NCBI RefSeq assembly: GCF_900199725.1
Contig: NZ_LT904902.1
Coordinates: 590,659-654,658, forward strand
Reading direction: 5' to 3'
From: Cytobacillus massiliigabonensis
Lineage (GTDB): Bacteria > Bacillota > Bacilli > Bacillales > Cytobacillaceae
DNA: 64,000 nucleotides
In this document: piece by piece, positions 47,955 to 48,589 of the stretch
How the letters are laid out: each line of letters starts with the position of its first letter
How positions within the stretch are numbered: the stretch's first letter is position 1
The notes under the pieces: generated by a model
Databases searched by the model: none
The model's input: only the letters and a program-made list of their open reading frames with translations
Told to the model about the DNA's origin: nothing
Program-made: the position numbers and the translations under genes

Positions 47955-48105
47955 AACCAACGTCCTTCCCTAATTTTCTATTTCTATTGTAAGAAACGGT
48001 GCATCTCCTTGTCCAATCTTTAGGAGGAAATTATAGGTGGATCAAATTTTTTTAGATCTTTTTTAAAATAAATGTATATGAAATCTGATACCGGGTATTC
48101 TAATC

Positions 48106-48535
48106 TATGAAGGGGAACAAGTCATTTGATAACCTAAAGAATTATCAAAACTTGAAATGAGGTGTCTGTCGCAGACAGCTAAATTCACTTTCATGAATCG
48201 CTTCCATACGTTTAAAATCTAAGGGGATGGTTGCATTGGGCAATATTGCTGAATGAACCAAGAGATCTACCATTCTGATCGCCTAACCCGTTGGTGGTCT
48301 AGCATACACTTTGAAATGAGGTGTTTGTAAAAGACAATGACCTGCTTTATACGTTGTAAAACTTATAAAGATTAGGGGATGGTCAGCTTGAACAAAGATC
48401 GAAAGTCTCTAGAAGTAAACACAATCATTCATAAATGAGGTGTTTATCAAAGGGAATAACCTGAAGTAGAAACGTCATTTAAGAAGCATTCCCCTTCACG
48501 AAGGCAGGATTCCATGCGGATCCTGCCTTTTATCC
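48106..48535 (+). ncRNA. Candidate structured non-coding RNA between ecsA and hit
   Basis: No frame of note crosses this about 430-nt stretch. TGAAGGGGAA (48108-48117) is perfectly complementary to TTCCCCTTCA (48489-48498), closing the domain. Inside are hairpins TTTGATAA/TTATCAAA (48125-48149), AGGTGTCTG/CAGACAGCT (48160-48180), ATTCA/TGAAT (48183-48198), a 10-bp helix 48263-48272/48292-48300, AGGT..TTGT/ACAA..ACCT (48319-48343) and CTTTATA/TATAAAG (48345-48370). The motif AAATGAGGTGT occurs three times and TAGGGGATGGT or AAGGGGATGGT twice, in alternation. A terminator follows at 48501-48540. I do not recognise it as 6S, RNase P, tmRNA, SRP RNA or a named riboswitch. Confidence 0.7.
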
Positions 48536-48540
48536 TTTTT
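48501..48540 (+). terminator. Terminator of the candidate RNA
   Basis: AAGGCAGGAT (48501-48510) pairs with ATCCTGCCTT (48520-48529), then a T-rich run through 48540. Only the plus-strand side has a T-run. Confidence 0.85.
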
Positions 48541-48589
48541 TTAGATATGATAAGATAATGGAAAATAGAACAAATAGGAGTTGTTTCGA

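Follow-up and report, generated by a model that had tools for sequence, protein, structure and literature searches.

The window analysed here, 64,000 nt of the Cytobacillus massiliigabonensis genome (GCF_900199725.1, contig NZ_LT904902.1, positions 590,659 to 654,658), carries between ecsA and hit, on the same strand as hit, a genuine structured and non-coding RNA gene of about 430 nt (48106-48535). Judged from comparison of sequences, it is close to certain that the window carries here its version of the RNA gene described as S357, ncr1670 or Bvs196; the RNA itself is already known. The form found in this lineage is an enlarged one, in which a unit of two short motifs, A and B, is present twice, yielding the succession A-B-A-B-A within a single closing stem (Table 1).

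The original prediction had proposed a structured RNA of this size that is crossed by no notable reading frame, and both parts of the proposal are borne out. The minimum free energy (MFE) fold of the stretch reaches -135.3 kcal/mol (z -6.2), with none of 100 shuffled sequences equally stable, and the list of open reading frames shows none of at least 50 aa in 48106-48535, the longest stop-free runs on the plus strand being 29, 22 and 21 codons. Given that no such frame exists, a coding reading of the A motifs was rejected.

Table 1. Positions of the RNA gene, its parts and its flanking signals in the window
Feature	Position	Strand	Basis
-35-like element TGTATAT, sigma F/sigma G-type	48073..48079	+	similar bases 5' of the first A in many relatives
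-10-like element GGGTATTCTAAT	48093..48104	+	GGnATNNTAAT-type pattern in gaps
Structured RNA, enlarged S357/ncr1670/Bvs196 homologue	48108..48535	+	ends inferred; similarity, fold, covariance model, literature
Closing stem P1, 5' arm TGAAGGGGAA	48108..48117	+	full complement of the 3' arm
Motif A, copy 1, then mini-hairpin GUCUGUCGCAGAC	48155..48165	+	repeat search, conservation
Possible long-range stem P2, 5' arm (GCTTC..ACGTTT)	48200..48213	+	MFE
Motif B, copy 1 (AGGGGATGGT)	48222..48231	+	repeat search
Motif A, copy 2	48314..48324	+	repeat search, conservation
Hairpin CUUUAUACGUU..AACUUAUAAAG between A2 and B2	48345..48370	+	MFE, permutation test
Motif B, copy 2	48374..48383	+	repeat search
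Motif A, copy 3	48433..48443	+	predicted hairpin with upstream AAACAC..UCAUU
Possible long-range stem P2, 3' arm (AAACGT..GAAGC)	48470..48487	+	MFE
Closing stem P1, 3' arm TTCCCCTTCA	48489..48498	+	predicted pair probability 0.67-1.0
Intrinsic terminator, hairpin and T-run	48501..48545	+	sequence; predicted

Identity of the RNA

So is this a named RNA? The prediction had recognised none, which holds for Rfam but not for the literature. The Rfam search that had been proposed as a check was run, and at the gathering threshold Rfam 15 produced no match in the window, whereas the single match in eight relatives is a cspA leader (L137:950-1254) that lies away from the RNA. The strongest hit below threshold, the Rfam family ncr1241, was considered and rejected: it scores 19.2 bits where 60 are required and covers 48481-48533 only, the 3' end and the terminator. 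Genome annotations probably miss this RNA, given that no Rfam model recognised the family in any locus scanned.

In the literature, ncr1670 of B. subtilis is reported as a 256-nt RNA from the hinT-ecsA gap, enriched 2.77-fold with Hfq (PMC3574147), and ncr1670 and S357 are considered one sRNA (PMC4410918). Bvs196 of B. velezensis, 294 nt in a hinT-ecsA gap of 490 bp, is reported to be expressed specifically in the forespore under sigma F and mainly sigma G; its deletion lowers sporulation frequency and resistance to heat and UV and increases resistance to formaldehyde, and the RNA binds spo0A and sspN-tlp mRNA in vitro in microscale thermophoresis (MST), with binding lost in mutants (PMC9147052). 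The introduction of that report names S357 as the homologue of Bvs196, but its discussion names S547 (PMC9147052), which is CsfG (PMC8216469).

The named gaps used for the homology comparison came from a HinT query (80 of 350 candidates), and the subtilis group is represented among the fetched loci by relatives of B. subtilis. The B. velezensis gap (L150) has three A motifs and no B motif; its closing stem matches, its -10 is sigma F/G-like, and one terminator was detected. Depending on the start chosen, 296-302 nt lie between the edge of the -10 and the end of the T-run, against the published 294 nt of Bvs196. Three A motifs are also found in each of L141-L151, including B. spizizenii (L141), B. 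inaquosorum and B. atrophaeus. These shared motifs, stem and terminator place the window RNA with S357/ncr1670/Bvs196. It occupies the same gap on the strand of hit and has the repeated A motif and the closing stem; with Bvs196 it shares, in addition, the number of A motifs, the sigma F/G-like -10 and the terminator, and with S357/ncr1670 the hinT-ecsA gap and the motifs found across the subtilis group. Unlike Bvs196, it is about 430 nt long, has two B modules, which the subtilis group lacks, and contains other spacers. The length of these RNAs varies with the number of repeats (294 nt in Bvs196, about 430 nt in the window) and was not taken as defining.

Repeats, stems and flanking signals

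Motif A, AAAUGAGGUG, appears in the window as the repeat AAATGAGGTGT starting at 48155, 48314 and 48433, and module B, AGGGGAUGGU, as GGGGATGGT at 48223 and 48375, within a 17-nt repeat, D2; the alternation had been read correctly from the letters. The A copies are 159 and 119 nt apart and the B copies 152 nt. No 11-mer occurred three times in any of 2000 mononucleotide shuffles of the region, and two copies were seen in 48 of them. Alignment of the unit A1-A2 with the unit A2-A3 scores 22.5, which exceeds all 300 shuffles (mean 7.2, sd 2.5, maximum 15.5), so that the suspected duplication of a unit of about 150 nt goes beyond chance.

The A motif is the more fixed of the two. A 20-base A pattern is present in exactly three clustered copies, and nowhere else, in all 19 genomes of the genus that were searched for the A and B patterns, out of 36 in the DNA-similarity listing (reversed-pattern control, 0). 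Of these 19 genomes, 16 have two copies of the longer B pattern, one (G043) has a single copy, both B cores being present there but one missing the longer pattern, and two (G041 and G063) have none. The latter two retain the ecsA-hit gap and three A motifs (L221, L222), with a single decayed B-like site, AGGAGATGTT, and no second; it is this retention of A upon the loss of B that identifies A as the more fixed part. Motif A is followed by a mini-hairpin of the form UYU, five-base loop, AGR, in which standard pairs are found in 446, 569, 530 and 508 of 602 copies at positions 10-22, 11-21, 12-20 and 13-19, respectively. The sequence TCATT, which could pair with AAUGA of motif A, is found within 40 nt upstream of 93 of 192 last copies (15.3 expected from shuffles), 70 of 213 middle copies (19.0) and 43 of 198 first copies (9.1), that is, in fewer than half of the copies. 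In the predicted fold of the window RNA, A1 and A2 each leave their first four to five bases unpaired and A3 is mostly paired, so that a hairpin common to all A copies is at most a possibility.

The closing stem P1, in which TGAAGGGGAA is fully complementary to TTCCCCTTCA over the 10 bp that had been pointed out between 48108 and 48489, also covaries in a permutation test of pairing energies. Among 142 non-redundant loci, the pairing of each locus with its own partner (-20.8 kcal/mol) was stronger than in any of 5000 permutations, which ignore kinship among loci here as in the other stem tests (permuted mean -17.2 kcal/mol, sd 0.28), and in approximately 80% of the loci, the own partner pairs better than that of the average other locus. 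The paired segments, of 75 and about 48 nt, contain the arms. This set was derived from 214 gaps, of which 13 were left out because they lacked a second A motif, a clear terminator hairpin or sufficient sequence; removal of near-duplicates then took the remaining 201 to 142. As for the seven or more internal helices of the prediction, the MFE fold has many, and of the three that were tested, one is supported. Using ABABA layouts only, with near-duplicates removed (73 reduced to 45, 33 and 11 loci), the hairpin between A2 and B2 was matched or exceeded in 12 of 5000 permutations (33 loci), and one of its pairs has changed from CG to UA in 10 of 36 sequences, but no significant covariation was detected for the long-range P2 (322/5000, 45 loci) or the A2/B2 stem (837/5000, 11 loci). 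For P2, matched changes are visible by eye at single loci. Whole RNAs aligned globally with MAFFT yielded a poor consensus, and 56 gaps were therefore aligned with the motifs as anchors. RNAalifold found only 6 pairs in the module alignment; hence R1, the covariance model derived for the family, acts largely as a profile of the sequence, and its E-values are rough.

The bases upstream of the RNA, with the -35-like TGTATAT, resemble the consensus of a sigma F/sigma G-type promoter; this candidate promoter suggests a transcription start near 48108. Of 213 gaps, 121 have the -10 pattern (2 after shuffling) and 93 the combination of the -35 and -10 patterns (5 after shuffling). At the other end, the terminator that had been noticed directly after the RNA comprises a perfect 10-bp inverted repeat (48501-48510/48520-48529) and a T-run. 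The letters of this hairpin, GGCAGGATTCC..GCGGATCCTGCC (48501-48529), are kept at the same place in most of L002-L062, and in most loci of the family, L046, L052 and L064 being exceptions. Such conservation of the sequence itself is unusual for terminators and suggests a second role. Downstream of the terminator, a TATGGTAAAATA-like element (48541-48560) is seen at the same position in many of L031-L061 and, from its sequence, may be a separate promoter of hit.

Distribution and array growth

The RNA is conserved far beyond the strain, as the prediction required: a DNA similarity search at E 0.01 finds it in 189 of 193 family genomes, and 67 of the 70 loci fetched from this search are located in the divergent ecsA-hit gap. 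In the order, R1 matches 192 of 397 genomes, in 63 of 135 genera, a figure that has to be considered a lower bound because the model derives from just the window's family (36 sequences), so that absence by R1 is weak evidence, and misses G235 and G425, with two A motifs each. None of the 15 genomes of the order without spoIVA is among the 192 R1-positive ones when the lists are compared by eye. This absence fits a role in sporulation but is confounded by kinship, since the 15 genomes come from 4 families (6 genera) where the RNA is seldom or never seen anyway. In wider samples, the exact A pattern was found in 18 of 398 genomes of the class and 7 of 398 of the phylum, and no genome outside the order has more than one exact copy; single copies there were seen in 2 genomes of the class sample (reversed control, 3) and 2 of the phylum sample (control, 0). 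These matches are taken as chance, a divergent relative being the less likely source.

For a closer comparison, 220 loci were assembled, 140 fetched for likeness to the RNA and 80 via HinT, which makes the gaps a non-random sample. The divergent ecsA-hit gap is present in 214 of them, the six loci without the divergent pair being left out, and removal of identical gaps leaves 199, with A or B motifs in 198 of them. The layouts are diverse: ABABA in 73 gaps, AAA in 20, AA in 15, BABA in 12, ABA and AAABA in 11 each, and 26 rarer layouts, one gap being free of motifs. Three A motifs are found in 111 gaps, two in 45, four in 22, five or more in 14, one in 6 and none in 1; two B motifs in 103, one in 56, none in 37 and more in 3. 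In L060 (six A, four B) and in L135 and L183 (seven A each), a long array is accompanied by one detected terminator. The eight A motifs and two terminators within the single ecsA-hit gap of L102 look like two RNA genes in tandem, each with its own terminator. Arrays have grown in several lineages, with repeats both gained and lost.

Copies unlinked to ecsA and hit also exist. By eye, those in L036, L044 and L048 have the A-B-A layout and keep the closing stem and the terminator, with the -10-like pattern 5' of the copies in L036 and L044 as well, and another copy, with several A motifs, is present in L137. Their neighbours, assigned by eye from open reading frames, are resolvase-like in L036, transporter-like in L048, and transporter-like and cold-shock-like in L137. 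The retention of A, B, stem and terminator in unlinked copies argues for action in trans. The location of the RNA directly 5' of hit on the same strand would also be compatible with a cis-acting leader of hit, yet an intrinsic terminator intervenes between the two and copies reside away from hit, which makes such a leader the least probable of the readings considered, indeed a very remote one.

In the available text of the literature searched on S357/ncr1670/Bvs196, we found no description of a repeat-built family, a B module, array growth, unlinked copies or the order-wide reach, and a literature search with the motif string brought up no title on an S357-type RNA among the matches listed.

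What the repeats may bind

Across the gaps, the spacers vary far more than the repeats do; a motif as nearly frozen as A probably contacts something conserved. An ordinary sRNA that pairs through variable spacers with spo0A, sspN-tlp and other mRNAs, the repeats merely stabilising it, would account for the binding of Bvs196 and the effect of the mutations in MST. However, the compensatory mutants that rebind do so more than 10-fold and more than 100-fold more weakly (PMC9147052), and with each of the seven starts tried, the binding segments (74-131 and 109-124) lie in the interval from A1 to A2. Nothing obvious in the window RNA corresponds to this part, and because the published segments belong to a variable spacer, they leave the retention of the repeats unexplained. 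We therefore regard mRNA pairing as a rather unlikely explanation of the RNA as a whole.

Could the repeats attract ribosomes? The prediction had noted that the AGGTG motifs resemble ribosome-binding sites that lack a gene and had surmised that they may bind something; the surmise is still the best inference, but position 4 speaks against a plain ribosome-binding site. Among 516 copies of motif A from 199 distinct gaps, with the other nine positions fixed, this position is U in 513, C in 2, A in 1 and G in none. Being nearly invariant and mismatched with the 16S rRNA tail, U4 makes a plain Shine-Dalgarno reading unlikely and weakens the candidate mimic, although duplex energies alone favour it. 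These energies, computed for duplexes with the 16S tail, are -9.9 to -15.3 kcal/mol for A and -11.2 and -12.5 kcal/mol for B. A decoy that would capture 30S subunits in the forespore by pairing with their tail is also compatible with the A to G changes tolerated at positions 1, 2 and 6, which would keep the pairing, and with the predicted unpaired state of the 5' halves of A1 and A2 in the window. Nevertheless, G4 would raise the pairing to -21.9 kcal/mol and is never used, which is not what a motif optimised for the 16S tail would look like, and over 80 sampled gaps, A is predicted to be on average more paired than the whole RNA (unpaired 0.28 vs 0.37). On balance, the decoy appears improbable.

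A further option is a sponge for C-rich sRNAs such as CsfG, which is expressed in the same compartment. CsfG is encoded at another locus and corresponds to the row for ylbG-ylbH in the Hfq study of B. subtilis. Like Bvs196, it is a forespore sRNA under sigma F and G; it is described as having C-rich regions (PMC8216469), and A and B are G-rich. However, motif B, the best fit to C-rich loops, is absent from all 25 gaps of the Bacillus subtilis, licheniformis and pumilus groups (L141-L165), and with CsfG judged by its description, a sponge of this kind seems even less probable than the ribosome decoy.

The hypothesis that we favour instead is docking on the A repeats. The RNA would be a trans-acting small RNA of Bacillales that has a sigma F/sigma G-type promoter sequence and a terminator of its own in the ecsA-hit gap. 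Its closing stem would present several A elements in the forespore, and the near-invariant AAAUGAGGUG, together with the small hairpin that follows, would contact a single conserved partner, in all likelihood a protein and failing that another RNA, which the RNA would titrate or scaffold. The B modules might add contacts in some lineages, and pairing of spacers with single mRNAs could be a species-level extra. Sequestering RNAs with a repeated motif in variable copy number are known in the CsrB/CsrC type, to which the present RNA can be compared only in the way it would work; motif A has no GGA core. In a bolder version, each A element would dock one dedicated forespore factor, or the tail of the 30S subunit, and the length of the array, mostly 2 to 4 and up to 7 sites in one apparent transcript, would set the amount stored or silenced in the dormant spore. 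That version we consider doubtful, whereas the chances of docking of partner copies on the A repeats as such are about even, and the identity with S357/ncr1670/Bvs196 together with the docking mechanism, taken jointly, is fairly probable.

With the present analysis, a forespore RNA known from single species becomes a family spread over the order, and the repeats replace the variable spacer of the published work as its likely functional site. If the bolder version is true, this RNA would be a developmental RNA sequestration device, unlike a conventional mRNA-pairing sRNA.
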